Source of the DNA: Phycisphaerales bacterium
Lineage (GTDB): Bacteria; Planctomycetota; Phycisphaerae; Tepidisphaerales; Tepidisphaeraceae
Length of the DNA stretch: 64,000 bases
Direction of reading: 5' to 3'
NCBI GenBank assembly: GCA_020853095.1
Contig: JADYZN010000014.1
Span: 1-64,000 of the forward strand
Shown: in pieces, positions 34,599 through 48,141 of the stretch
Layout: the number at the start of each line of letters is the position of its first letter
How positions within the stretch are numbered: the first letter of the stretch is position 1
Translations under genes and position numbers: made by a program
The notes under the pieces: generated by a model
Database searches by the model: none
The model's input: the letters and a program-made list of their open reading frames with translations, nothing else
What the model was told of the DNA's origin: nothing

Positions 34599-34688
34599 TC
34601 CTTGCATTCCAAGCCAATGGAAACCAACGCCCATGATGGGTGTTGGCGGGTGTTGTGCTGCGCATTGGGGTGGAAGCGAGGATCGAGC

Positions 34689-36059
34689 TTGAATTGCAAG
34701 TGTTTATTACTACTGGCTTTAGGTGGGATTGTGTCTGTTTCCGGTTGTGCGGGGCCGCCGCGGGTTGATCCGGCGGAGCGGATCGCACATGAATTGGGGT
34801 TGGGCCATGCCATCGAATATCGCGTGACAGGCGGGCCGGATGATGCGGCGGAGCTGTCGGGCGATTTGCTGACAATGGAGCAGGCAGTGCGGTGGGGTTT
34901 GGAGCATTCGCCGGAGGTTCAACAGGCGTTGGCGCGCACACGGTCGGCTCTGGCCGAGGCCCGGCAGGTTCGGTTGTTGCCCAATCCGATTCTCAGTGTT
35001 GTGTTCCGGTTTCCTGAAGGCGGGGGCAATCCAACGATCGAGGCGGGGTTGGCGGCGGAGTTGTTTTCGTTGTTGCGCCGGCCGGGCGAGATCAGGGTTG
35101 CGGACATGAAATTGCGGTCGGCCGGCGCTGAGGCGCTGACCGAAGCATTGGACGTGGTGCTGGGTGTGCAGGAGCGGTTTATCGAGGTGCAGGGGTTGGA
35201 GGCGGAACTGGCGTTGTTGGAACGACGACGCAAGGAATTGGAGGGGGTTCTGGAGCGTGAGAAGTCGCGAAAGTCGGCGGGCGAAGCATCGGGATTGGAC
35301 GTGTTGGGATTGAAGTTGGAACGCGCCAAAGTGGATGCAGACCTGCTGGACCGTCGATCGTCGTTGCGCGAGGCGCAACTGGGGCTGTCGAGGATCATCG
35401 GGATGCCTTCCGGTACGTTGCAATGGCGTGTTGTCGCGTGGCAACCTGAGGAGATGGATGGGGGCGATGAAACGGCGTGGATTGAATCCGCGCTGGAACG
35501 TCGGCCGGAAATTCAGGCGATTCGGTGGGAATTGGCGAGCCTGGGAGAACAAGCGGAATTGGCTTCATCGCCGTGGCTGGACGGTTCGGAAGCGGGCGTG
35601 GCGGCCGAGCGCGATGAGGGCAAATGGTCTGTGGGGCCGGCGGTGTCGGTGCCGATCCCGTTTCTGGATTGGGGACAGGCCAGAACGATGCGGGCGGAGG
35701 CGCACCTGGTGGAAGCCCGCCACAAGCTGACGCAGCTTCGTCGGCAGGTGATCGAGGAGGTTCGGCGGGCATGGGGTGTGGTGCGGGATGGGCAAAAAAC
35801 TCACGCATTGTTGCAGGATGAACTGATTCCGCTGCTCCAACAGCAGCAAGATCGTTTTCAGGCGATGTTTCTGGCCGGCGAGGTGGATCAGGCGCGTTTG
35901 CTGTTGGCGCAACAGCAGTTGCAGGAGGCGCTTGTTCGCAAAATCGAATTGGAATGCCGGCTGGCAACCGCCCAGGCCCGGCTGTCACGGGCGGCGGGAG
36001 GTGCGCGGGCGGCTCATCAGGACAAGTCAACAACTCAGAAAGTAAACGAGAGGAAATGA
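34689..36059 (+). CDS. czcC: TolC-family outer-membrane component CzcC
   Basis: It is the outer-membrane channel of a tripartite metal exporter. MNCKCLLLLALGGIVSVSGC read from TTG 34689 is a lipoprotein signal with GAGGA upstream, so I prefer it (456 aa). ATG 34617 is the other choice and lacks a Shine-Dalgarno. Two long helical repeats follow: TMEQAVRWGLEHSPEVQQALA near residue 65 and a second one in the C-terminal half. Its stop overlaps the czcB start (ATGA). Confidence 0.85.
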   Translation: MNCKCLLLLALGGIVSVSGCAGPPRVDPAERIAHELGLGHAIEYRVTGGPDDAAELSGDLLTMEQAVRWGLEHSPEVQQALARTRSALAEARQVRLLPNPILSVVFRFPEGGGNPTIEAGLAAELFSLLRRPGEIRVADMKLRSAGAEALTEALDVVLGVQERFIEVQGLEAELALLERRRKELEGVLEREKSRKSAGEASGLDVLGLKLERAKVDADLLDRRSSLREAQLGLSRIIGMPSGTLQWRVVAWQPEEMDGGDETAWIESALERRPEIQAIRWELASLGEQAELASSPWLDGSEAGVAAERDEGKWSVGPAVSVPIPFLDWGQARTMRAEAHLVEARHKLTQLRRQVIEEVRRAWGVVRDGQKTHALLQDELIPLLQQQQDRFQAMFLAGEVDQARLLLAQQQLQEALVRKIELECRLATAQARLSRAAGGARAAHQDKSTTQKVNERK

Positions 36060-37294
36060 AGATGAAAATCAGTCGAATCATCGGAATTGGATGTGTATTG
36101 GCGATGGCCTGGTGCGGCCCGTGGGCCGCCGGCAGCGACGACCACGATCATGATCACGAACACGATCATGGGCATGGAGAGACCGAACACGTTGACGAGG
36201 TGCGATTGAGCGCGGAGGAAATCGCCCGTCATGGGGTGAAAACCCAGCCGGTGAAACGCCAATCCAACGGTTCTTCCTTCACGGCCCCGGCGCGGGTGGC
36301 GTTGAACGCCGATGCGTTGGCGCACGTGGGTTCGCCATTGAGCGGCCGGGTGGTGGAACTGAAGGCCAAACTGGGGGATGAGGTGAAAAAAGGGGATGTG
36401 GTTTTGGTGCTGGAGAGCGCGGAGCTGGCCGAGGCGCAGGGGGAATTGCTGGTGAGATTCGCCGAGGTGAAGGTGGCCGAGATGGCGGTCGCTCCGGCAA
36501 AGCGGGCATACGAGCGGGCGAAGAAATTGTTTGAGGATCACGAGGGGATCGCCGAGGCGGAGGTGTATCGCCGGCAGACGGAGTGGGAACTGGCCGAGGG
36601 GAAACTGGCCGGCGCGCTGGCCGCGCAGTCTGCGGCCGAGAACCGGCTTCGGTTGTTGGGGATGGACCCGCCGGCGATGGATCGACTGAAGAAAGACCAG
36701 GCGATTCAGTGGCGCTTTGACGTTCGCAGTCCGATCGACGGGAAGGTGATCGAGCGGGAGGTGACGCTCGGCGAATGGATCGGCGCGGATCGGGATGCGT
36801 TGATGGTGGTGGCGGATGTGTCGAGGTTGTGGGTGATCGCGGAGGTTCCTGAAAGCCGGTTGGCGGAGGTGAGCGAAGGGTCGGCGGCCTGGGTGGAGGT
36901 TGCGGGGAAAAAAGAAGTGGCGGGGAAGATCGGCCATGTCGCGGCGGTATTGAACGCCCAATTGCGCACGGCGGCGGTGCGGATTGAATTGGAGCACAGC
37001 GATGGATTGCGCGCGGGGATGTTCGTGCGGGCGCGAATCGGCGATGGGGCGGCCGAAGGGGTGCTGGCGGTTCCCGCCGGCGCGGTGCAGGTGGTCGAAG
37101 GTGGGCCGGCCGTGTTCGTGGCGGTGGATGGGGAGGAAAACACGTTTGCCAAACGGGGGGTGAAGCTTGGGAAACAGTTGGCGGAGCAGGTGGAAATCGT
37201 GCAGGGGTTGAAGGAAGGGGAACAGGTGGTGGTGGAAGGAGCGTTTATTTTGAAGGCGGAGATGGGCAAAGAGGGCGTGGGGCATGAGCATTGA
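36056..37294 (+). CDS. czcB: Periplasmic adaptor CzcB with His-rich N-terminus
   Basis: This 412-aa membrane fusion protein links CzcA to CzcC. After the signal peptide (about 25 residues) comes a His/Asp cluster (DDHDHDHEHDHGHGETEH) that should bind divalent metal. It is followed by a lipoyl/hairpin region (residues 75-200) and beta domains (DVRSPIDGKVIEREV, VPAGAVQVVEGGPAVFVAV). ATG 36056 overlaps the czcC stop; ATG 36062 is better spaced from AGAGGA and may be the true start. Confidence 0.9.
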   Translation: MKMKISRIIGIGCVLAMAWCGPWAAGSDDHDHDHEHDHGHGETEHVDEVRLSAEEIARHGVKTQPVKRQSNGSSFTAPARVALNADALAHVGSPLSGRVVELKAKLGDEVKKGDVVLVLESAELAEAQGELLVRFAEVKVAEMAVAPAKRAYERAKKLFEDHEGIAEAEVYRRQTEWELAEGKLAGALAAQSAAENRLRLLGMDPPAMDRLKKDQAIQWRFDVRSPIDGKVIEREVTLGEWIGADRDALMVVADVSRLWVIAEVPESRLAEVSEGSAAWVEVAGKKEVAGKIGHVAAVLNAQLRTAAVRIELEHSDGLRAGMFVRARIGDGAAEGVLAVPAGAVQVVEGGPAVFVAVDGEENTFAKRGVKLGKQLAEQVEIVQGLKEGEQVVVEGAFILKAEMGKEGVGHEH

Positions 37295-37300
37295 TGAGTG

Positions 37301-37368
37301 TGGAGGGCGGTGGTTCTCCGCCGTCGGGGGAGGCAGAAATTTCGGCGTCGCGGGAGCGACGCCCTCCA
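37301..37368. repeat. Palindromic repeat unit between czcB and czcA
   Basis: Outer arms TGGAGGGC (37301-37308) and GCCCTCCA (37361-37368) are perfect complements. They enclose a small hairpin (GGCGG/CCGCC) and a perfect 8-bp stem GGCGTCGC-GGGA-GCGACGCC at 37344-37363. It looks like a mobile REP/BIME-like element and could also reduce czcA expression relative to czcCB. Confidence 0.6.
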
Positions 37369-37412
37369 GGTTGTGGCGGTGATGTGGTTCGGCAAGATCA
37401 AAGGATGCGAAC

Positions 37413-40400
37413 ATGCTTGAGCGGTTGTTGAAATTTTCGGTGGAGCATCGGTTTCTGGTCGTGATGCTGACGGCGCTGGCGGCGGGGGTGGGGGTGTGGT
37501 CGGTTCGACACGTGGCGATCGACGCGGTGCCGGACATCACCAGCAATCAGGTGCAGATCAACACGGAATACGCGGCGTTGTCCCCCACGGAGATCGAGAC
37601 GAGGGTGACTTATCCGGTGGAGACGGCGCTGGCGGGGATTTCGGGGTTGAAACAGACCCGATCGATCAGCCGAAACGGATTTTCGCAGGTGACGGCGGTG
37701 TTTGATGATGGGGTGGATTTGTATTTCGCCCGCCAGCAGGTGGCGGAACGACTGGCCTCGGCGCGCGACCAGTTGCCGGCCGGCGCCCAGCCGCAAATGG
37801 GGCCGATCACCACCGGTCTGGGTGAAGTGTACATGTGGGCGGTGCAGTTTGAGCATCCGCAGGGCGTCGGGGCGGCCGTGCGGGATGGACAGGCGGGGTG
37901 GCAGTCGGATGGAAGCTATCTGACGGTGGAAGGGGAGCGGCTCAAAAGCGACGTGGAGCGGGCGAGTTATCTGCGGACGGTGCAGGACTGGATCATCCGG
38001 CCGCAATTGAAGGGGATTCAGGATGTGGCGGACATCGACGCGATCGGCGGGTACGTCAAACAATATCACGTCACCCCCGACCCGATGAAGCTGGTCAGTT
38101 ACGGACTGAGTTTCGCGCAGGTGATCGAGGCGCTGGAGCGAAACAACGCCAGCATCGGCGCCGGTTACATCGAGCGCGGGGGGGAGGCGTTGAACGTGAA
38201 GGTGGATGGGCGGATCGAATCGGTTCAGCAGATCATGCAGGTGGTGGTGGCCGTTCGACAGGGGACGCCGATCACCATCGCGCAGGTGGCGCAGGTGGGG
38301 ATCGGGCGTGAATTGCGCACCGGCTCCGCGTCGGGAAACGGGCGGGAGCTGGTGGTCGGGACGGCGATGATGCGGATCGGCGGCAACAGCCGGACGGTGG
38401 CGGCCGCGGTGGATCGGAAACTGGCACAGGTGAACCTGTCGTTGCCGCCGGATGTGGTTGCCAAGCCGGTGCTTAACCGCATGAAACTGGTGGATGCGAC
38501 CATCGGCACGGTGCGGAAAAATCTGGTGGAGGGGGCGATCCTGGTGATCGTGGTGCTGTTCGTGCTGCTGGGGAATTTTCGAGCGGCGCTGCTGACGTCG
38601 CTGGCGATTCCGATTTCGATGCTGTTGACGGCCACCGGCATGGTGCAAAGCGGCATCAGCGGCAACCTGTTGAGCCTGGGAGCGATCGATTTCGGCCTGA
38701 TCGTCGATGGATCGGTCATCCTGGTGGAAAACTGTCTGCGCAGACTGGCCGAACGGCAGCACGAGTTGGGCCGGAAACTCACGCTCCGCGAGCGGCTGGA
38801 CACGGTCTTCGCCGCCAGCAAACAGGTGCGTTCGGCGACGGCGTTCGGCGAGGCGATCATCATCACGGTCTATCTGCCGATCCTGGCGTTGACGGGGATC
38901 GAGGGGAAGATGTTTCGGCCGATGGCGATCACGGTGATTTTCGCGCTGACGGCGGCGTTCGTGCTGTCGTTGACGTTCGTGCCGGCGATGCTGGCCATCC
39001 TGATGCGGGGAAAAATCAAGGAAAAGGAGAATTTCTTGATCCGGCTGGCCAAGTGGGCCTATGAGCCGACCGTCCGGCTGGCGGTGCGGTGGCGGTGGGG
39101 CGTGATGGGGGTGGCGGCCGGCGCGTTCGTGCTGTCGATGGCGCTGTTCACCCGGCTGGGGCAGGAGTTTGTCCCGACGCTGGATGAACAGGACATCGCG
39201 ATGCACGCGATCCGGATTCCATCCACCGGCATCACACAATCCACGATGATGCAGATGGAGGTGGAGAAGGCGATCAGCGCGATTCCGGAGGTGGAATTCG
39301 TCTTTTCAAAGACCGGGACGGCCGAGATGGCGGCCGATCCGATGCCGGCGAACGTGTCCGATGCGTTTGTCATCCTTAAGCCGAGGGATCAATGGCGAAG
39401 CGAGGCGCAAATGGGAGAGTTGATCGAACGGATGGAACGCCAGGTCGAGCCGGCGCACGAAAACCATTCGGACAAGGAGCATGGGCACGGTTCATTGCCT
39501 GAAGGTCACAAGGGCAAATTGATCCGGCTGATCGAGCTGACGGTCGGTCAACTGGCGGGGAACAATTATGAATTCACCCAGCCGATCCAGATGCGGTTCA
39601 ACGAGTTGATTTCCGGGGTGCGGTCGGACGTGGCGGTGAAGGTGTATGGGGATGATTTTGACCGGATGAGACAAACGGCCGCGCGGATCGCCGGGGTGTT
39701 GGAGAATGTGAAAGGGGCGGCGGACGTGAAGGTGGAACAGACCCAGGGGCTTCCGATGTTGCAGGTGGTGATCGACCGCGAGGCGGCATCGCGTCACGGA
39801 TTGAACGTGGTGGATGTGCAGGAGGTGATCGCGGCGGCGGTGGGAGGGCGCGAGGCGGGGCAGATGTTTGAAGGGGACCGGCGGTTTGACGTGGTGGTGC
39901 GGTTGCCGGAAGGGTTGAGAGGGGATGTTTCGGAGCTGGCGAACCTGCCGATTCCGTTGCCGGCCGGAGATTCAAAAGGAGGCTCGCACGTGGCACTCGC
40001 GGCGGAGGGCGCAGGGCAGGATGCGGATCGGGTGGGATTTGTGCCGCTGGATGCGGTGGCGGAGATCAAGATGGTGGAGGGGCCGAACCAGATCAGCCGG
40101 GAAAATGGCAAACGGCGCGTGGTGGTGCAGGCCAATGTGCGGGGGAGGGACATCGCATCGTTTGTGGAGGAGGCGCAGTCGGCCATCGCGGCCCAGGCGG
40201 CGCCGTCGCCGGGAACGTGGCTGGACTGGGGCGGGCAGTTTGAACATCTGATGGAGGCGCGACAACGCCTGGCGGTGGTGGTTCCAGCCTGCTTTTTCCT
40301 GATTTTCGTGCTGCTGTTCAGCACGTTCAACAGCGCCAAATACGCGGTGATGGTTTTTACCTGCGTGCCGCTGGCGCTGGGGGGCGGCGTGGCGGCGTTG

Positions 40401-40784
40401 TGGATGCGCGGGATGCCCTTCAGCATCTCGGCGGCGGTGGGATTCATCGCGCTCAGCGGCGTGGCGGTGTTGAACGGGCTGGTGATGATCACGTTCATCA
40501 ATCAGCTCAGACAGGAAGGGCGTTCGCTGGAGGAGTCGATCGTGGCCGGATCGTTGACAAGATTGCGGCCGGTGATGATGACGGCGCTGGTGGCGTCGCT
40601 GGGGTTTGTGCCGATGGCCCTGGCCAACGGAACGGGCGCGGAGGTGCAAAAACCGCTGGCGACGGTGGTGATTGGAGGGATTGTTTCCTCAACGTTTTTG
40701 ACGTTGGTGGTGTTGCCTGCGCTCTATCGCATCTGGCATCGTCCCGAAGCCAACCTGTCCGCCAAAACACGTTTTGAGGATTGA
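37413..40784 (+). CDS. czcA: Heavy-metal efflux RND transporter CzcA
   Basis: This 1,123-aa inner-membrane pump uses the proton gradient. It has 12 predicted membrane helices in two halves. The TM4 motif DFGLIVDGSVILVEN of the Zn/Co/Cd HME group is present, and HVAIDAVPDITSNQVQ is at the N-terminus. A His-rich loop (HSDKEHGHGSLPEGH) in the periplasmic region could bind metal. It is separated from czcB by 118 bp containing a palindromic repeat. Zn, Co or Cd export is likely; Ni or Cu cannot be excluded from sequence alone. Confidence 0.93.
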   Translation: MLERLLKFSVEHRFLVVMLTALAAGVGVWSVRHVAIDAVPDITSNQVQINTEYAALSPTEIETRVTYPVETALAGISGLKQTRSISRNGFSQVTAVFDDGVDLYFARQQVAERLASARDQLPAGAQPQMGPITTGLGEVYMWAVQFEHPQGVGAAVRDGQAGWQSDGSYLTVEGERLKSDVERASYLRTVQDWIIRPQLKGIQDVADIDAIGGYVKQYHVTPDPMKLVSYGLSFAQVIEALERNNASIGAGYIERGGEALNVKVDGRIESVQQIMQVVVAVRQGTPITIAQVAQVGIGRELRTGSASGNGRELVVGTAMMRIGGNSRTVAAAVDRKLAQVNLSLPPDVVAKPVLNRMKLVDATIGTVRKNLVEGAILVIVVLFVLLGNFRAALLTSLAIPISMLLTATGMVQSGISGNLLSLGAIDFGLIVDGSVILVENCLRRLAERQHELGRKLTLRERLDTVFAASKQVRSATAFGEAIIITVYLPILALTGIEGKMFRPMAITVIFALTAAFVLSLTFVPAMLAILMRGKIKEKENFLIRLAKWAYEPTVRLAVRWRWGVMGVAAGAFVLSMALFTRLGQEFVPTLDEQDIAMHAIRIPSTGITQSTMMQMEVEKAISAIPEVEFVFSKTGTAEMAADPMPANVSDAFVILKPRDQWRSEAQMGELIERMERQVEPAHENHSDKEHGHGSLPEGHKGKLIRLIELTVGQLAGNNYEFTQPIQMRFNELISGVRSDVAVKVYGDDFDRMRQTAARIAGVLENVKGAADVKVEQTQGLPMLQVVIDREAASRHGLNVVDVQEVIAAAVGGREAGQMFEGDRRFDVVVRLPEGLRGDVSELANLPIPLPAGDSKGGSHVALAAEGAGQDADRVGFVPLDAVAEIKMVEGPNQISRENGKRRVVVQANVRGRDIASFVEEAQSAIAAQAAPSPGTWLDWGGQFEHLMEARQRLAVVVPACFFLIFVLLFSTFNSAKYAVMVFTCVPLALGGGVAALWMRGMPFSISAAVGFIALSGVAVLNGLVMITFINQLRQEGRSLEESIVAGSLTRLRPVMMTALVASLGFVPMALANGTGAEVQKPLATVVIGGIVSSTFLTLVVLPALYRIWHRPEANLSAKTRFED

Positions 40785-40918: not shown

Positions 40919-42223
40919 ATGGCAACCACAGTTAGTTCCAGTTCATTGGCGATTAATGGGGGTCCCAAGGCGGTTGAAAAGCTGGATGAAAAGCTGTTTC
41001 ACTGGCCGATCGTGACGTCTGAGGATGAACAGGCGGTATTGGAGGTGCTGCGAGCCGGCAATATGTCGGGCACCGACATCACCCAGAAATTCGAGGCCGA
41101 ATGGGGCCAGTACCTGGGTACGCGCTATAACCTGGGGCATTGCAACGGAACGATGGCGTTGTTGTCGGCGATGTTCGCGGTGGGGCTGGGCCGGGGCGAT
41201 GAGTTGATTCTGCCGTCGATCACCTACTGGGCCAGCGGCCTGCAGGCCTATTCGCTGGGGGCGACGCCGGTCTTTGCCGACATCGATCCGGTCACGCTGA
41301 CGATTGATCCCAAGGACATCGAACACCGCATCACGCCGAAAACCAAGGCGATTTGCGTGGTCCACTATTGCGGGCATCCATGCGACATGGATGCGATCCT
41401 GCCCATCGCCCGCAAGCACAAGCTGAAAGTGATCGAGGATGTCTCGCACGCACAGGGGACGCTATATAAAGGCAGGCGGGTGGGTGCGATGGGCGACGTG
41501 GCGGGCATCTCGATGATGGCCGGCAAGAGCTTTCCGATCGGTGAAGGGGGGATGTTCAGCACCAACGATTCGCAGATTTATCAGCGGGCCGTGGCGTTTG
41601 CTCATTATGAACGCATCGGCGGCGAAGTGACCGACCCGAAGTTGCGCAGCCAGTGCATCGGCGAAGGCCGGATCAGCGCGCTGCCGCTGGGCGGGGTGAA
41701 AGGTCGGATGAATCAGACCTCGTCGGCGATGGGCCGGGTGCAGTTGAAGCATTATGAGAAGCGGATCAAGGAGATTCAGGATGCGCTCAACCGGTTCTGG
41801 GATTTGCTGGAAGGCGTTCCGGGGATTCGTCCGCACCGGCCGGCCAAGGGGAGCGGATCGACCATGGGCGGATGGTACAACCCGCTGGGCCATTATCTGC
41901 CCGAAGAATTGGGCGGCCTGCACGTGGACAAATTTGTCAAAGCGGTCGATGCCGAGGGTGGCAGGGTGGGGCGGAACATCAACTTTCCGCTGCATCTAAG
42001 CCCGGTGTTTTTGCAGGCGGATATCTATCGCGATGGGAAGCCGACCCGAAACGCCTTTACGGATCGGGACGTTCGCCAACCGGCCGGTTCGTTGCCGCAC
42101 AGCGAGGCCGCAGGCGAGCGGTGCGTCGGCGTGCCCTATTTCAAGCACGATGATGCGCAGGCCATCGCACGGTACGCCGAAGCCTACAAGAAAGTGGCGC
42201 TGCGGGCGGATGAATTGCTGTAA
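40919..42223 (+). CDS. DegT/DnrJ/EryC1/StrS-family aminotransferase-like protein
   Basis: This 434-aa PLP-dependent protein is of the kind that forms amino sugars from keto sugars. VIEDVSHAQGTLYKG provides the cofactor-contacting Asp and Gln. AGISMMAGKSFPIGEGG holds the Lys for the internal aldimine, and GTRYNLGHCNGTMAL is near the N-terminus. ATG 40919 has AGGA upstream. It is 36 bp from a Gfo/Idh/MocA gene, a pair often found where a keto sugar is made and then aminated or degraded. Substrate unknown. Confidence 0.88.
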   Translation: MATTVSSSSLAINGGPKAVEKLDEKLFHWPIVTSEDEQAVLEVLRAGNMSGTDITQKFEAEWGQYLGTRYNLGHCNGTMALLSAMFAVGLGRGDELILPSITYWASGLQAYSLGATPVFADIDPVTLTIDPKDIEHRITPKTKAICVVHYCGHPCDMDAILPIARKHKLKVIEDVSHAQGTLYKGRRVGAMGDVAGISMMAGKSFPIGEGGMFSTNDSQIYQRAVAFAHYERIGGEVTDPKLRSQCIGEGRISALPLGGVKGRMNQTSSAMGRVQLKHYEKRIKEIQDALNRFWDLLEGVPGIRPHRPAKGSGSTMGGWYNPLGHYLPEELGGLHVDKFVKAVDAEGGRVGRNINFPLHLSPVFLQADIYRDGKPTRNAFTDRDVRQPAGSLPHSEAAGERCVGVPYFKHDDAQAIARYAEAYKKVALRADELL

Positions 42224-42259
42224 TTTTGGCAAATATCTGAAAAGAAAAAGGTTTTTAAG

Positions 42260-43174
42260 ATGGCGGAGTCATTGCGCATCGGTTTGATCGGGCTGGACAC
42301 ATCCCACGCGCCGGCGTTTGCGCGGTTGTTCAACGTGGCGGACGATCCGGAGCATCTGTCCGGCGGAAAAGTGGTCACGGCGTATCCGGGCGGATCAAAG
42401 GATTTTGAGTTGAGCTGGTCGCGGGTGGGCAAGTTTACGGAGGAAATCCGTGACAAGTTCGGCGTGTCGATGGTGGACAGCCCCGAGGCGGTGGCCGAGG
42501 CATCGGACCTGGTCCTGATGACGGCCGTCGATGGGCGGGTGCATCGTGAATTGTTTGAGCGGATCGTCAAGTTCAAACGCCCGACGTTCATTGACAAGCC
42601 GCTGGCCACCACCAGCGAGGATGCGAAGGCGATTTTCAAGCTCGCCGGGGACCATGGCGTCGCGGTGATGAGCTGCTCGTCGCTGCGATATGCCGACAGC
42701 TTGACCGATGCGCTGAAGGATCCCAAGGCGCAGGAACTGGGGCGGGTTGTCGGATGTGATGTTTATGGGCCGATGGATATCCAGCCGCCGTTGCCGGGGC
42801 TTTTCTGGTATGGCATCCACACCGTTGAGATCATGAGTTACGTGATGGGGCTGGGATGCAAACAAGTGCGGGTGGCGACCAGCGAGAAGTTCGACCTGAT
42901 CACCGGCATCTGGGAAGATGGCCGGATGGCCAGCATCCGCGGGAATCGCAATGAAAACTGGACCTATGGCGTCACGCTGCAACGCGAAAAGGGCGCTCAA
43001 TATGTCAACATGAGCGTCAACAAGCGTTCGTATTACGCCAACATGCTGACGGCGATTATGGCGACGCTGCCCAACGGCAAGAGCGATGTGCCGGCCGCCG
43101 AGACGATGCAGGTCATCCGGTTCCTGGAAGCGGCCAACCAAAGCCGATCGTCCGGAAATTCGGTTGATCTGTAG
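42260..43174 (+). CDS. Gfo/Idh/MocA family oxidoreductase
   Basis: This 304-aa NAD(P)-binding protein has an N-terminal Rossmann domain (LRIGLIGLDTSHAPAFARLF), IDKPLATTSEDAK with the catalytic-site Lys, and YGIHTVEIMSYVMG in the C-terminal domain. The glycine motif is unusual (GLIGLDTSH instead of GxGxxG/A). It is shorter than the gene at 18678. It probably works with the aminotransferase just upstream on the same sugar compound. No signal peptide is seen. Confidence 0.85.
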   Translation: MAESLRIGLIGLDTSHAPAFARLFNVADDPEHLSGGKVVTAYPGGSKDFELSWSRVGKFTEEIRDKFGVSMVDSPEAVAEASDLVLMTAVDGRVHRELFERIVKFKRPTFIDKPLATTSEDAKAIFKLAGDHGVAVMSCSSLRYADSLTDALKDPKAQELGRVVGCDVYGPMDIQPPLPGLFWYGIHTVEIMSYVMGLGCKQVRVATSEKFDLITGIWEDGRMASIRGNRNENWTYGVTLQREKGAQYVNMSVNKRSYYANMLTAIMATLPNGKSDVPAAETMQVIRFLEAANQSRSSGNSVDL

Positions 43175-43262
43175 ATCAGCCGAAACGGGTATACCAAGGA
43201 TCCTCGGCTTGCCCCATTCGTGACGGCAATTACATTAAAATCCCTCGATCGGAGATTATAAT

Positions 43263-43304
43263 CCCTTCGCCCGATGGCTGAATCATCGGGCGAAGGGTTT
43301 TTTT
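43263..43304 (+). terminator. Strong rho-independent terminator, 12 bp before the next start codon
   Basis: A perfect 13-bp stem (43263-43275 with 43285-43297) and 9-nt loop are followed by seven T. It ends the oxidoreductase transcript. The Shine-Dalgarno AAGGA of the next gene starts right after the T run, and a TATAAT hexamer overlaps the foot of the stem (43257-43262). Confidence 0.88.
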
Positions 43305-43316
43305 AAGGAATATTGC

Positions 43317-44393
43317 ATGGCCATCCCAGTGAAGGTCGTCACCATCGCCCAGGCCACCCCGCACAATCCCCGTCATTCAGAGCCGGCGATGATCGAGCTG
43401 AAAGATGGCTCGTTGATGATCGTCTGGCAGGAGTTTGATGGCAGTGAATTGGGAGCGGATGATCACGCGCCGGGTCATCTTTCGACCATGGTCTCCCGCG
43501 ACGGTGGCATGAGTTGGGGCGAACGGCGGGTGTTGGTGGAGAATCTGCCCGGCGATGTCAACGTATTCAGCCCGAGCCTGATCCGTTCACGGGAGGGGGA
43601 TATTCTGATGGTGTTTTTCCGGTACAACGAATTTGTGCCTGAAAAACCGCCCTCCACGACCGCATATCTGTGGCGGTCTTGCGATGAAGGGAAGACCTTT
43701 ACGCCAGTGTCGTTGCTCTGGTCATGCAGGCCTCTGGCATTTGCCAGCGGAGTGATTAAACGCTTGAAAAGCGGGCGACTGTTGATGCCGATTTGCCGGC
43801 AGACGGGCCAGGTTTGGTCGCCGACCGACCATGAAGTTTCCGGATCGGCCTACAGCGACGACGATGGCCGTTCGTGGACGATCAGCGATGGCTGGGTCGA
43901 TCTGCCGATGCGCGGGGCGATGGAGCCGCACGTCGCCGAACTGCCCGATGGCCGCGTGATGATGGTCGCGCGGACGCAGTTGGGGGCGGTGTTTCAGTCG
44001 ATCTCATCCGATGGCGGCATCACCTGGAGCAAGGGACAGACCACGGGATTGAAAGCGCCCGAATCGTGTCCGGAACTGGTCAATCTTCCCGATTCGGATG
44101 ATTTGCTGATCGTCTGGAACAACAGCGAATACGACATGAAATTCGGCAGTCATTACGGCAAACGCAGCCCGTTGACGCTGGCGGTTTCAAAGGATGGGGC
44201 AAAGACCTGGTCGGCACCGAAAAACGTCGTGGACGATCCCAAACGCTGTTATACCAACCCGGTGATCTATTTTATGCGGTCGGGCAGGTGCGTACTGGCG
44301 TGGTTTGAAATGGGATACAACGACAAATGGCAGATGTTCGGCCGTATCGACCTGCGGGGGGCGATCTTTGACCGGTCGTGGCTGGATCAATAG
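43317..44393 (+). CDS. Sialidase-like BNR/Asp-box beta-propeller protein
   Basis: This 358-aa protein has four Asp boxes (SRDGGMSWG, SDDDGRSWT, SSDGGITWS, SKDGAKTWS), the hallmark of sialidase-fold propellers. HSEPAMIELKDGSLMIVWQEF at the start is like planctomycete exo-alpha-sialidase-type genes. No signal peptide is present, so it would act inside the cell. True sialidase activity is not shown; other glycoside hydrolases share the fold. AAGGA precedes the ATG at 43317. Confidence 0.82.
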   Translation: MAIPVKVVTIAQATPHNPRHSEPAMIELKDGSLMIVWQEFDGSELGADDHAPGHLSTMVSRDGGMSWGERRVLVENLPGDVNVFSPSLIRSREGDILMVFFRYNEFVPEKPPSTTAYLWRSCDEGKTFTPVSLLWSCRPLAFASGVIKRLKSGRLLMPICRQTGQVWSPTDHEVSGSAYSDDDGRSWTISDGWVDLPMRGAMEPHVAELPDGRVMMVARTQLGAVFQSISSDGGITWSKGQTTGLKAPESCPELVNLPDSDDLLIVWNNSEYDMKFGSHYGKRSPLTLAVSKDGAKTWSAPKNVVDDPKRCYTNPVIYFMRSGRCVLAWFEMGYNDKWQMFGRIDLRGAIFDRSWLDQ

Positions 44394-44461
44394 GCCGTCA
44401 TTGAAACCGAAACAGGGGATGGGGCTTTACAAATCGGACGTTTGCGGAAACCATCACCGGC

Positions 44462-45781
44462 ATGAATTCGACACCAAATCCCAAGGAACAATCCCATTGG
44501 CGCGCGGGGCTTGCATCGGTGGACATTACGCCGCCGGAACCGATCTGGCAGGCGGGATGGGGCAATCGCACCCAGCCGTCGATCGGCGTGACGACACCCA
44601 TCTTCGCCAAGGCGCTGGCGCTCAAACACCAGGATGAGCCGGTCTCGATCCTGCTCAGCAGCGACCTGATGGCCTACAGCGTCGAGTTTGTCGATGAAGT
44701 GGTCGCGACGGCCAAAAAGCGGTTCGGCATCGATCGCGCCCGGCTTATTCTATGCGCCTCGCACAATCACAGCGCGCCGGTCACGACCAACGTGCTGCCG
44801 TTGTATTACGAGTTCACACCCCAGCAGTACGACGTGATTCAACGTTACAGCGACACCCTGCACGACAAGTTTGTCGAGGCCATCGGCCGGGCGATTGAGA
44901 ATCTCGCCCCCGCGACGCTGGAATTCGGCAACAACATGGCGGGTTTCGCAATCAATCGCCGCCGGTCGCGGCCGGATGGGCGGGCGTGGGCGAACGTGGT
45001 CGATCAGGATGTGCCGGTGCTGTGCGTGCGCGACTTGGAGGGCAAAGTGAAGGGGATCGCGTTTGGTTATGCCTGTCACACCACCACCGTGCAGGATGAC
45101 ACCATCAATGGCGATTACGCGGGGTTCGCGCAGGAGGAACTGGAAAAACTCTACCCGGGCGCGGTGGCGCTGTTCATCAACGGTTGCGGCGGGGATCAGG
45201 GTCCGCACCCGCGGTTTAAGACCGAACTCGGCCGGACGTATGGGCATCTTCTGGCGACCGCGGTGGATGATCTGATCAAGCGGAGGATGTGCCCGCCGGC
45301 GACGCCCGTGCATGGCCCGCTGAACGCGGCGGCCGGCGTGGCGACGTTGCGGTTTCAAAAACCGCCGACACTGGCGGAATATGAGGCGATGCTGCCTGGA
45401 CGATCCGCGCAGTATTTGCGCGAGGTTCAGCACCAGATCGACCTGCTCAAGGCCGGCAAGCCGCAAATCAGCGAATATCCCTATTCGATGCAGGTCTGGC
45501 GTTTTGGCAGCGGCCAGACGTTCATCATCATGTCCAGCGAAGTGGTGATCGATTACCAGATCAAATTCAAGCAGAAATACGGCGTCGATTCGACCTGGGT
45601 GCTGGCGTACGCCAACGAACACATCGCCTACATTCCATCGCGTCGGGTGCTGGAGGAAGGCGGGTATGAAGGAACCCTCGGCATGTTGGAATGCGGATTC
45701 CCATCCCCCTTCACCGACGACATTGAATCGTCCATCACTCGCACCGTCGAACAACTTTGGAAACAGGCCGAACCGAAATGA
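44462..45781 (+). CDS. Neutral/alkaline ceramidase N-terminal domain protein
   Basis: The 439-aa protein starts with WRAGLASVDITPPEPIWQAGWGNRTQP. It has LCASHNHSAP and GYACHTTTVQDDTINGDYAGFAQ, matching the zinc-dependent ceramidase-like N-terminal domain (amidase on N-acyl compounds). It lacks a signal peptide and the C-terminal Ig-like domain of secreted ceramidases. In this setting an N-acyl sugar or other amide may be the substrate; that is inference. Its stop overlaps the next start (ATGA). Confidence 0.8.
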   Translation: MNSTPNPKEQSHWRAGLASVDITPPEPIWQAGWGNRTQPSIGVTTPIFAKALALKHQDEPVSILLSSDLMAYSVEFVDEVVATAKKRFGIDRARLILCASHNHSAPVTTNVLPLYYEFTPQQYDVIQRYSDTLHDKFVEAIGRAIENLAPATLEFGNNMAGFAINRRRSRPDGRAWANVVDQDVPVLCVRDLEGKVKGIAFGYACHTTTVQDDTINGDYAGFAQEELEKLYPGAVALFINGCGGDQGPHPRFKTELGRTYGHLLATAVDDLIKRRMCPPATPVHGPLNAAAGVATLRFQKPPTLAEYEAMLPGRSAQYLREVQHQIDLLKAGKPQISEYPYSMQVWRFGSGQTFIIMSSEVVIDYQIKFKQKYGVDSTWVLAYANEHIAYIPSRRVLEEGGYEGTLGMLECGFPSPFTDDIESSITRTVEQLWKQAEPK

Positions 45782-46980
45782 AACTCAACGGCAAAAAAGT
45801 TTATCTGAATTCTCCCGGCAACGGCACGCTGGTTTACGGCATTTCGTTTTACGTCCGGGCGGCCGGTTTGGAAAAAATGCGCACGCGGATGCTCGAGACC
45901 CGCAGCGACCTGTTTGACAACAACGATGTGGCTTGGTCGGCCGACAACGGGCAAAGCTGGACCCAATGGAAGGACATCCCCTGCAATTTCAAAGAGCCGC
46001 AGGGGATGCGCCGGCTCTGGACGACGCCGGGGTTTGTCGATCCGGTGCGCGACCGCCTGATCAGCATCGTGCTCGAAGGAACGTTGCCCAACGACAATCC
46101 GGAAGATGGGATGAAGAACTATTTTCTTCGCTATCGCATCTCCGAGGATGGCGGCCGGACCAGCGTGACCGATCAGATCATCGTCCAGCCGGGATACACC
46201 CCCGATCACCCCTTTGAATGCATCTGGGTGGGTAAAAATTCGATCATGATCGGCGACATGGGCAGCCGCCCGATCCGCACGCGGCAGGGAACGATCCTCG
46301 TGCCGGTGCAAACAAGCCCCATCGGTCCCGATGGGGAATATTACAACCCCGGCGGCGGCTATACGTTCCACGAATCGGCCGTGCTGATCGGCCGCTGGAT
46401 CGACGACCGCCGAATCGACTGGACCTTGTCCGATCGCATCCAGATCGATCCCCGCCGATCCACCCGCGGCGCGGTTGAACCCACCATCATCGAAATGCCC
46501 GATGGACGCATTTTGATGGTCATTCGCGGCAGCAACGGCGGCAGCAAAGACACCGACCACCAGATTCCAAGCTATCGCTGGATGTGTATCAGCGACGATG
46601 GCGGCCAAACCTGGAGCACACCCCAACCCTGGACCGACATGGATGGACATGCGTTTTTCTCCCCCAGCAGTTGTTCGCAACTTCTGGCCCATTCCAACGG
46701 CCGGATTTACTGGCTGGGCAACATCAGCCCGACCAATTGCCAGGCCAATTCACCGCGATACCCCTTCATCATCGCCGAGGTGGATGCCAGGTCCCTTCGA
46801 CTGAAAACCAGTTCACTGCTGGTGGTCGATGACCGCGCGCCGGATGAAGACCTTTCAATGACGCTTTCCAATTTCATAGCCCACGAGGATCGACAAACCG
46901 GCGAAATCATCCTGCACATGAGCCGGTTTTTTCCTGACAAATGGTTCGGCAACGCCTATGAATACCGCATCGGCGTTTGA
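45778..46980 (+). CDS. Second sialidase-like BNR/Asp-box protein
   Basis: This 400-aa protein has Asp boxes SADNGQSWT, SEDGGRTSV and SDDGGQTWS and many Trp, typical of six-bladed sialidase-fold propellers. It is translationally coupled to the ceramidase-like gene (4-bp overlap). It lacks a signal peptide, like the other genes of the set. ATG 45778 is decided by the overlap and the MKLNGKKVYLNSPGNG start. Confidence 0.8.
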   Translation: MKLNGKKVYLNSPGNGTLVYGISFYVRAAGLEKMRTRMLETRSDLFDNNDVAWSADNGQSWTQWKDIPCNFKEPQGMRRLWTTPGFVDPVRDRLISIVLEGTLPNDNPEDGMKNYFLRYRISEDGGRTSVTDQIIVQPGYTPDHPFECIWVGKNSIMIGDMGSRPIRTRQGTILVPVQTSPIGPDGEYYNPGGGYTFHESAVLIGRWIDDRRIDWTLSDRIQIDPRRSTRGAVEPTIIEMPDGRILMVIRGSNGGSKDTDHQIPSYRWMCISDDGGQTWSTPQPWTDMDGHAFFSPSSCSQLLAHSNGRIYWLGNISPTNCQANSPRYPFIIAEVDARSLRLKTSSLLVVDDRAPDEDLSMTLSNFIAHEDRQTGEIILHMSRFFPDKWFGNAYEYRIGV

Positions 46981-47085: not shown

Positions 47086-48141
47086 TTGATTATTGTAATG
47101 AACCCCGAGGTTTCCCAGCAGTCGATTGACCGGGTGGTGGAGACGATCGAGCGCATGGGGTTTAAGGCCCATCTGTCGCGTGGACAGTTCCGCACTGTGA
47201 TCGGGGCGGTGGGGGAAGAGGGTTCGCTGGATCAGAACCATCTGGCTTCGTTGGACGGCGTTGAAAAAGTCGTTCCGATCATGAAGCCCTACAAGCTGGC
47301 CAGCCGCGATTTTCATGAAGATGACAGCGTCATCGAGGTCGGCGGCGGAAGCGTCCCCAAGGTCAAGATCGGCGGCGTTCACGCCGTCTGCATCGCCGGG
47401 CCGTGTGCGGTCGAAAACGAGGGGATGCTGAACAAGATCGCCCGCCAGGTCCGCGATGGCGGGGCGACGATCCTTCGTGGCGGGGCGTTCAAGCCGCGCA
47501 CCAGCCCATATTCCTTCCAGGGTCACGGCGAAGAGGCGCTCAAATGGATGCGGGCGTGCGGTGATGAGCTGGAGATGCCCATCTGCACCGAGGTGATGGA
47601 CACCCGGCAGGTGGAATTGATCGAGCGATACACCGATTCGTTCCAGATCGGCGCCCGCAACATGCAGAACTTCGATCTGCTCCGCGAGGTGGGCAAAACC
47701 CGCAAACCGGTCCTGCTCAAGCGGGGGCTGGCGGCCACGGTCAAGGATTGGCTCCTGTCGGCCGAGTACGTTCTGAGCCAGGGCAATCGCGGCGTGATCC
47801 TGTGCGAACGGGGGATTAAAACCTTTGAAGACAGCATCCGATATTCGCTGGATGTCACCAGCATTCCGGTGGCGCGGCAATTGTCCCACCTGCCGATCAT
47901 CATTGATCCTTCGCACGCCGCCGGCAAACGCGATTTCGTGCCGGCCATCGCGGCGGCGGGGATGGCCGCCGGGGCGCATGGGGCGATCATCGAGGTGCAT
48001 TACTGCCCCAGCGAAGCCCAGTGCGATGGGCCGCAGGCTCTTTTGCCGGAAGTATTCACCGAGCTGATGGGCCAGTTGAGGCAGATCGCGGCGATTTTCA
48101 ACAAACAATTTGCCGGGTCGGCCGTGCCGGCCGGGGCATAA
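47086..48141 (+). CDS. aroF: 3-deoxy-7-phosphoheptulonate synthase (DAHP synthase, type I beta)
   Basis: It joins PEP and erythrose 4-phosphate, the first step of aromatic synthesis. An N-terminal ferredoxin-like regulatory domain (residues 1-85) precedes the barrel (AGPCAVENEGML, RGGAFKPRTSPYSFQG, IDPSHAAGKR). It starts at TTG 47086, with AGGAG six bases upstream. The 351-aa length fits the AroA-beta group. It is followed by tpiA after 12 bp. Confidence 0.95.
   Translation: MIIVMNPEVSQQSIDRVVETIERMGFKAHLSRGQFRTVIGAVGEEGSLDQNHLASLDGVEKVVPIMKPYKLASRDFHEDDSVIEVGGGSVPKVKIGGVHAVCIAGPCAVENEGMLNKIARQVRDGGATILRGGAFKPRTSPYSFQGHGEEALKWMRACGDELEMPICTEVMDTRQVELIERYTDSFQIGARNMQNFDLLREVGKTRKPVLLKRGLAATVKDWLLSAEYVLSQGNRGVILCERGIKTFEDSIRYSLDVTSIPVARQLSHLPIIIDPSHAAGKRDFVPAIAAAGMAAGAHGAIIEVHYCPSEAQCDGPQALLPEVFTELMGQLRQIAAIFNKQFAGSAVPAGA

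Follow-up and report, generated by a model that had tools for sequence, protein, structure and literature searches.

What brings together, in one planctomycete genome, an aminotransferase, an oxidoreductase, two propellers of the sialidase superfamily and a protein with the fold of neutral ceramidases? The question is raised by a block of five genes in Phycisphaerales bacterium (contig JADYZN010000014.1), which we analyzed within a stretch of 64,000 nucleotides, positions 1 to 64,000 of the forward strand, hereafter called the window. An earlier note on this DNA had proposed that the products handle an N-acylated amino sugar or a sphingolipid-like headgroup inside the cell. We tentatively read the five genes, here called DegT, Gfo, BNR1, Cer and BNR2, as a module for the breakdown, inside the cell, of an N-acylated amino sugar or aminocyclitol, a reading that we find plausible and short of probable. 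What we can show is the gene content, the conservation of catalytic residues in Cer, DegT and Gfo, the fold adopted by Cer, and a recurrent physical linkage between DegT (also Gfo) and genes of the PF04734 family; the substrate, the order and direction of the reactions, and a single pathway shared by all five are what we infer. The block is laid out as follows (lengths in amino acids, aa; PLP, pyridoxal phosphate; bp, base pairs).

40919-42223, + strand: DegT, a DegT/DnrJ/EryC1/StrS aminotransferase (434 aa) with PLP lysine K203 and without signal peptide
42260-43174, + strand: Gfo, a Gfo/Idh/MocA-type oxidoreductase (304 aa) with catalytic K113 and H187
43263-43304, + strand: in the Gfo-BNR1 spacer, a hairpin resembling an intrinsic terminator (stem of 15 bp, followed by 7 T)
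43317-44393, + strand: BNR1, an Asp-box beta-propeller of the sialidase superfamily (358 aa)
44462-45781, + strand: Cer, a putative zinc amidohydrolase with the PF04734 neutral-ceramidase fold, catalytic domain only (439 aa)
45778-46980, + strand: BNR2, a second, divergent Asp-box propeller (400 aa) whose start overlaps the Cer stop

Active sites of the five proteins

Coordinates and Pfam matches bear out the earlier description of five open reading frames (ORFs) in a row on the + strand, all from named families. DegT matched PF01041 (E 3e-75, 254 bits), Gfo PF01408 (4e-8, 34.4 bits, cut-off 24), BNR1 PF13088 (8e-31, 108 bits), Cer PF04734 (4e-14, 52.8 bits, cut-off 32.1) and BNR2 again PF13088 (5e-11, 43 bits), while none of the five falls in a named equivalog of NCBIfam. 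The last pair does overlap, as had been noted, Cer and BNR2 sharing an ATGA; the start of BNR2 is most likely this ATG at 45778, which we preferred over the TTG at 45757. The absence of signal peptides also holds: judged by eye, none of the five N-termini resembles a Sec or twin-arginine (Tat) signal. Signal-like N-termini are present in many Pirellulales and in the Cytophagales relatives of Cer.

In the Protein Data Bank (PDB), Cer matched chain 2zws of Pseudomonas aeruginosa by profile at E 1e-36, and H101, H206, E360 and Y390 of Cer align with H97, H204, E411 and Y448 of that chain, which we take to be the zinc ligands. The catalytic His, Arg and Tyr (H103, R166, Y402) are likewise kept and aligned. 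We modelled Cer with AlphaFold from a six-sequence alignment (pLDDT 78.6, pTM 0.84), and a Foldseek search with this model gave neutral ceramidases as the sole credible structural relatives (TM 0.65-0.67 to 2zws and 4wgk). The amidase motif reads GDQGPH in Cer, with G247 in the position of the serine, and ADQNP, with an asparagine there, in most relatives. Pfam finds only the N-terminal domain of ceramidases, and the C-terminal one is absent (439 aa vs about 650-690). In human ceramidase the motif is GDVSPN and its serine, Ser354, is reported to position Arg257 (PMC6952831); therefore, the loss of the serine speaks against membership among the ceramidases more than against amide cleavage. Since the residues for zinc binding and amide cleavage are kept and both the serine and the C-terminal domain are missing, we consider a zinc amidase the probable identity of Cer, in preference to a ceramidase. 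We rejected it as a bona fide ceramidase on these two losses, which also leave the sphingolipid-like substrate of the earlier note without support.

The genome encodes a paralogous family around Cer: seven more PF04734-like matches (24-32% identity; G000 contigs C35, C55, C32, C14 at 103841-104593, and C39), one of them on the same contig past the window. In Planctomycetota and in a metagenome-assembled genome of Verrucomicrobiales, PF04734 domains also occur within open frames of ~1,400-2,000 aa (L060, L063, L025 and others), which suggests fusions to large secreted proteins.

The PLP lysine K203 of DegT is invariant in 38 homologs. All NCBIfam equivalogs score far below cut-off for this protein, and its PDB matches include entries of NtdA, which is not the best match. 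In a tree built by a quick method, it falls in a distinct clade of Planctomycetota (50-68% identity), separate from the clade of Tat-exported DegT proteins of Cytophagales. Gfo is a weak member of PF01408 (34 bits) in which a GLDTSH signature replaces the usual end of the GxGxxG motif; K113 and H187 are invariant in 24 homologs. In its tree, built in the same way, it shares a distinct GLDTSH subfamily with the Gfo of Cytophagales. Its match to the model of the archaeal UDP-GlcNAc (UDP-N-acetylglucosamine) 3-dehydrogenase, NF040723, reaches 29.8 bits for a cut-off of 450. In the PDB, YjhC is a weak match (E 0.019), and other oxidoreductases score better.

The two propellers differ in what they retain. 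BNR1 matches PDB sialidases by profile (E 1e-23 for 2bf6), and its E203 and R219 align with catalytic residues of sialidases. D49 is offset by one column relative to the acid/base Asp; for R19, R283 and Y312, the sialidase roles were assigned by motif and conservation only. Together these four probably correspond to catalytic positions. The RIP motif at the first arginine is absent from BNR1, which reads PRHSEP/PRNSE there. BNR2 shares the E/R part of the site (E234, R250), and the tyrosine nucleophile was not found in its alignments, where TLSNF follows R327 and no tyrosine is conserved. A structure of BNR2 predicted from a two-sequence alignment was too poor for use (pLDDT 39.9). Judging from the alignments, BNR1 would thus retain most of a sialidase-type active site and BNR2 would not. 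Regarding the comparison of catalytic sites advocated in the earlier note, Cer, DegT and Gfo keep their residues, BNR1 mostly does, and BNR2 does not.

Linkage of the families in Planctomycetota and Cytophagales

To what extent do these genes travel together? In the sister species Phycisphaerales bacterium SJ194, of the same genus, the five genes are found in the same order with 81-91% amino-acid identity (L021/L068). The complete block is absent from the 59 other relatives searched. Its parts are more widespread across Planctomycetota: Cer-like genes (E below 1e-40) occur in 26 of 246 genomes, Gfo relatives in 35 of 294, the DegT clade in 15 of 294, and BNR2 relatives (E below 1e-30) in 6 of 246; one scan of genome contigs returned five loci. 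The scattering of genes in relatives that the earlier note would have taken as a refutation is partly observed: the block is collinear in one sister species, and its genes are scattered in most relatives, where subsets recur.

One recurring link joins DegT to PF04734. Excluding the window's own genome and the sister genome, at least 12 of the 58 PF04734 places in relatives are accompanied, at no more than 3 kb, by one of the DegT matches listed, vs 0.83 expected at random. This is a ~14-fold excess, with a Poisson P of about 1e-10 that is a guide only, as 10 DegT genes account for all 12 places, the genomes are related and the DegT matches counted are a minimum. With about 20-33% identity, the PF04734 proteins counted are remote relatives of Cer; the DegT proteins encoded beside them spread over several separate clades of the tree. 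Individual genomes carry other combinations. In G183, homologs of Cer and BNR2 are fused in one ORF of 881 aa with no DegT or Gfo adjoining (L120), and elsewhere in this genome a window-clade DegT (61% identity) lies directly 5' of a BNR2 homolog (41%; L117). In G114, a pair of DegT genes, of which one belongs to the window clade, is followed by an ORF whose translation reads like a NodB polysaccharide deacetylase, an Amidohydro_2 gene and a PF04734 gene (L186). In G180, G133 and G574, the window-type DegT is accompanied by another DegT and by an Amidohydro_2 gene or homolog; in G041, by a Gfo, Amidohydro_2 and a sodium:solute symporter. The loci scanned for this clade look catabolic: they show amidohydrolases, transporters and a LacI regulator, and no genes of nucleotide-sugar biosynthesis. 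The pairing of a window-type DegT with a second, different DegT before or after it and with Amidohydro_2 (L178, L180, L184, L186) is an apparently undescribed cluster of other Planctomycetota.

A second setting was found in Cytophagales, where 18 of 242 genomes sampled encode a protein closely related to the Cer of Persicitalea. These proteins are 34-37% identical to the window Cer. Among the 17 loci fetched, Gfo, DegT and Cer are contiguous and co-directional in 12 and lie within about 5 kb in two more (L168, L169); the others have Gfo-Cer (L155), DegT-Cer (L170) and a lone Cer fragment (L167). The N-termini are Tat-like in Gfo and DegT and Sec-like in Cer, and these enzymes appear to be periplasmic. 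The cluster neighbours include NagA (TIGR00221, 294 bits, over the cut-off of 226), an NagP-like transporter (382 bits, cut-off 625), an NagB-like deaminase (130 bits, cut-off 237) and a second Gfo resembling the glycoside 3-dehydrogenase BT2158 (158 bits, cut-off 750). LacI and SusC/D are present in several loci and GH20 in one. The NagP-NagA-NagB neighbours suggest that the product of the cluster is GlcNAc-like; to carry such a product over to the window block would be a step by analogy. Orthology of the whole three-gene set with that of the window was rejected for DegT, from its tree. Because the two DegT proteins are not orthologous, the sets would be of the same families and assembled separately, at least for DegT.

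Two further features of these 17 loci (L155-L171) deserve mention. A Tat-like signal is found on DegT in 15 of them, and a periplasmic PLP aminotransferase would be unusual. In most, Cer adjoins a propeller-looking protein of ~430 aa without Pfam match, which we call Unk440.

One module or two units

In the module that we favour, BNR1, and perhaps BNR2, would cleave or recognise a glycoside, Cer would hydrolyse the N-acyl group to a free amine, DegT would pass the amine to a keto acid and leave a keto sugar, and Gfo with NAD(P)H would turn the ketone into an ordinary sugar. Taken in the order Cer-DegT-Gfo, the chemistry would run opposite to that of GnnA/GnnB and NtdC/NtdA, two oxidase-transaminase pairs of biosynthesis. 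The amino-sugar part of the earlier proposal fits the Cytophagales cluster with its NagP, NagA and NagB and the link between DegT and PF04734, with an amino sugar as the putative substrate. A more specific version, to which we give a slim chance, would be a breakdown route for 3-amino-3-deoxy sugars, e.g., N-acylated GlcNAc3N, the 2,3-diamino sugar of lipid A, with GnnA/GnnB chemistry running backwards. Cer would remove the N3 acyl chain, DegT would convert the amine to a ketone and Gfo the ketone to GlcNAc. The Cytophagales version would feed NagP-NagA-NagB and need a Tat-exported PLP enzyme; that of the Phycisphaerales genus would be cytoplasmic.

Several observations weigh against the catabolic module. 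The five-gene block is confined to one genus, and the BNR2 of the sister assembly (L021:11320-12525, G001:C109) is interrupted in frame by a TAG near codon 59, from gene decay or an assembly error. The window DegT is not orthologous to that of Cytophagales, hence the separate assembly of the two sets. No NagA, NagB or sugar transporter gene adjoins the block. The module gives the propellers only a putative role, and it does not account for the transaminase and reductase chemistry in Cytophagales, as 2-oxoglutarate and NADH are not expected in the periplasm. Finally, an intrinsic terminator divides the block. The spacer between Gfo and BNR1 contains a perfect 15-bp stem with a five-base loop (43263-43297), followed by a seven-T tail to 43304. 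The hairpin folds as RNA at -29 kcal/mol vs -12.9 +/- 2.8 for shuffles (z -5.7). It is by far the strongest of five terminator-like matches in the scanned region, which as a class show no excess over chance. A promoter-like pair, TTAAAA-16-TATAAT, lies just 5' of it (43235-43262); chance alone would also yield matches of this kind. A search of the window for further copies of the hairpin, which would point to a repeat, gave none beyond chance. The transcription of DegT-Gfo may end at the hairpin, with BNR1-Cer-BNR2 as a second unit. As the terminator parts the two groups, a single operon is not supported, and we did not retain it as a candidate.

The genes could accordingly be read as two separate units, neighbours by chance and sharing no pathway: DegT-Gfo for the interconversion of amine, ketone and hydroxyl on some sugar, and BNR1-Cer-BNR2 for the cleavage of a glycoside plus an amide or ester. 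This explanation, which we hold to be rather doubtful and still a serious candidate, draws on the strength of the hairpin, on the restriction of the block to one genus with components scattered in other relatives, and on the Cer-BNR2 fusion of G183. However, the order is preserved in the sister species, whose spacer is shorter, unrelated and without hairpin; the DegT-PF04734 and Gfo-DegT-PF04734 linkages recur elsewhere, and the adjacency of DegT and BNR2 in G183 joins both halves. The sialidase likeness of BNR1, with E203 and R219 at catalytic residues and sialidases as best PDB profile matches, would agree with the handling of nonulosonates: BNR1 would free a sialic-acid-like sugar, Gfo would act like NanOx or YjhC via a keto intermediate, Cer would deacylate and DegT deaminate. 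RgNanOx is indeed a Gfo/Idh/MocA oxidoreductase acting via 4-keto-DANA (PMC7535918), and YjhC is among the matches of Gfo. Yet other oxidoreductases match Gfo better, the location of the proteins is cytoplasmic, the tyrosine nucleophile is missing from BNR2, and no neuraminate lyase, kinase or epimerase was seen adjoining the block or among the scanned genes of the Cytophagales cluster. We regard this explanation as unlikely.

The reactions might also run in the direction of synthesis, Gfo oxidising, DegT aminating and Cer acylating, so that an N-acyl amino sugar is made for use in a glycan or lipid of the cell. The known pairs GnnA/GnnB (PMC7663294) and NtdC/NtdA (PMC8788734) are biosynthetic and the enzymes of the window are cytoplasmic, but no glycosyltransferase or nucleotide-sugar gene adjoins the block, and the neighbourhoods of the DegT clade and of the Cer relatives, with transporters, LacI, amidohydrolases, NagA/NagB and SusC/D, leave this route a low probability. 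An intracellular ceramidase acting with sialidases on glycosphingolipid-like lipids is hardly credible. The fold and zinc site of Cer and the superfamily of the propellers agree with it, whereas G247 replaces the amidase-motif serine, the C-terminal domain is missing from a protein of 439 aa, and such a pathway offers no evident place for DegT and Gfo.

The genes flanking the block, read from their translations, encode a CusA-type efflux protein (37413-40784) and a DAHP-synthase-like protein (47086-48141). The former is one of three genes directly upstream (34602-40784) that resemble a CusCBA-type heavy-metal RND efflux set. A search of the window's own genome for NagA gave weak relatives only, the best with 29% identity.

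Comparison with known systems

Each of the five proteins belongs to a known superfamily. In open-licence literature we found no description of the five-family combination, of the link between DegT and PF04734 or of the exported Gfo-DegT-Cer cluster, no joint mention of ceramidase and DegT among the papers listed on gene clusters and Bacteroidetes, and no joint treatment of neutral ceramidase, Planctomycetes and oxidoreductase. The earlier statement that no known pathway matched stands within these papers. PF04734 proteins are commonly annotated as ceramidases, and in two phyla many of them adjoin sugar aminotransferases and oxidoreductases; the aligned relatives of Cer lack the conserved amidase-motif serine. 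Should these proteins prove to be amino-sugar amidases, a large number of genomes would be annotated wrongly, and a route of carbohydrate metabolism would have escaped notice. The Cytophagales cluster, with its apparently Tat-exported PLP aminotransferase beside NagP/NagA/NagB, is directly testable, probably in culturable species.

GnnA/GnnB (UDP-GlcNAc 3-dehydrogenase and transaminase), which we place in the corresponding families, couple an oxidoreductase to a transaminase on a sugar substrate, as Gfo-DegT would. They are biosynthetic, whereas Gfo-DegT adjoins an amidase, has relatives in catabolic-type settings and matches NF040723 weakly. The NtdC/NtdA/NtdB kanosamine pathway likewise combines a dehydrogenase and a PLP transaminase, which turn the C3 hydroxyl of the sugar into an amine; its phosphatase NtdB is absent here, and the direction and substrate differ or may differ. 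BT2158 is reported to be a periplasmic glycoside 3-dehydrogenase (PMC11300592). That pathway of Bacteroidota shares with our loci exported Gfo/Idh/MocA enzymes and sugar utilisation, and the Cytophagales cluster itself contains a BT2158-like Gfo; the passages on BT2158 describe neither a DegT nor a PF04734 protein (PMC11300592). The "ceramidase" of inositol clusters is SrfJ (PMC9430895). GH33 sialidases (NanI 2bf6, 1eur) resemble BNR1 in the propeller and in the positions of E203 and R219; they differ from it in having the RIP motif and a signal peptide, and from BNR2 in the tyrosine. As for neutral ceramidases (PaCD 2zws; human ASAH2 4wgk), Cer shares their fold, zinc ligands and catalytic H103, R166 and Y402, and differs from them in its lack of the amidase-motif serine, C-terminal domain and signal peptide, and in being clustered with sugar enzymes.

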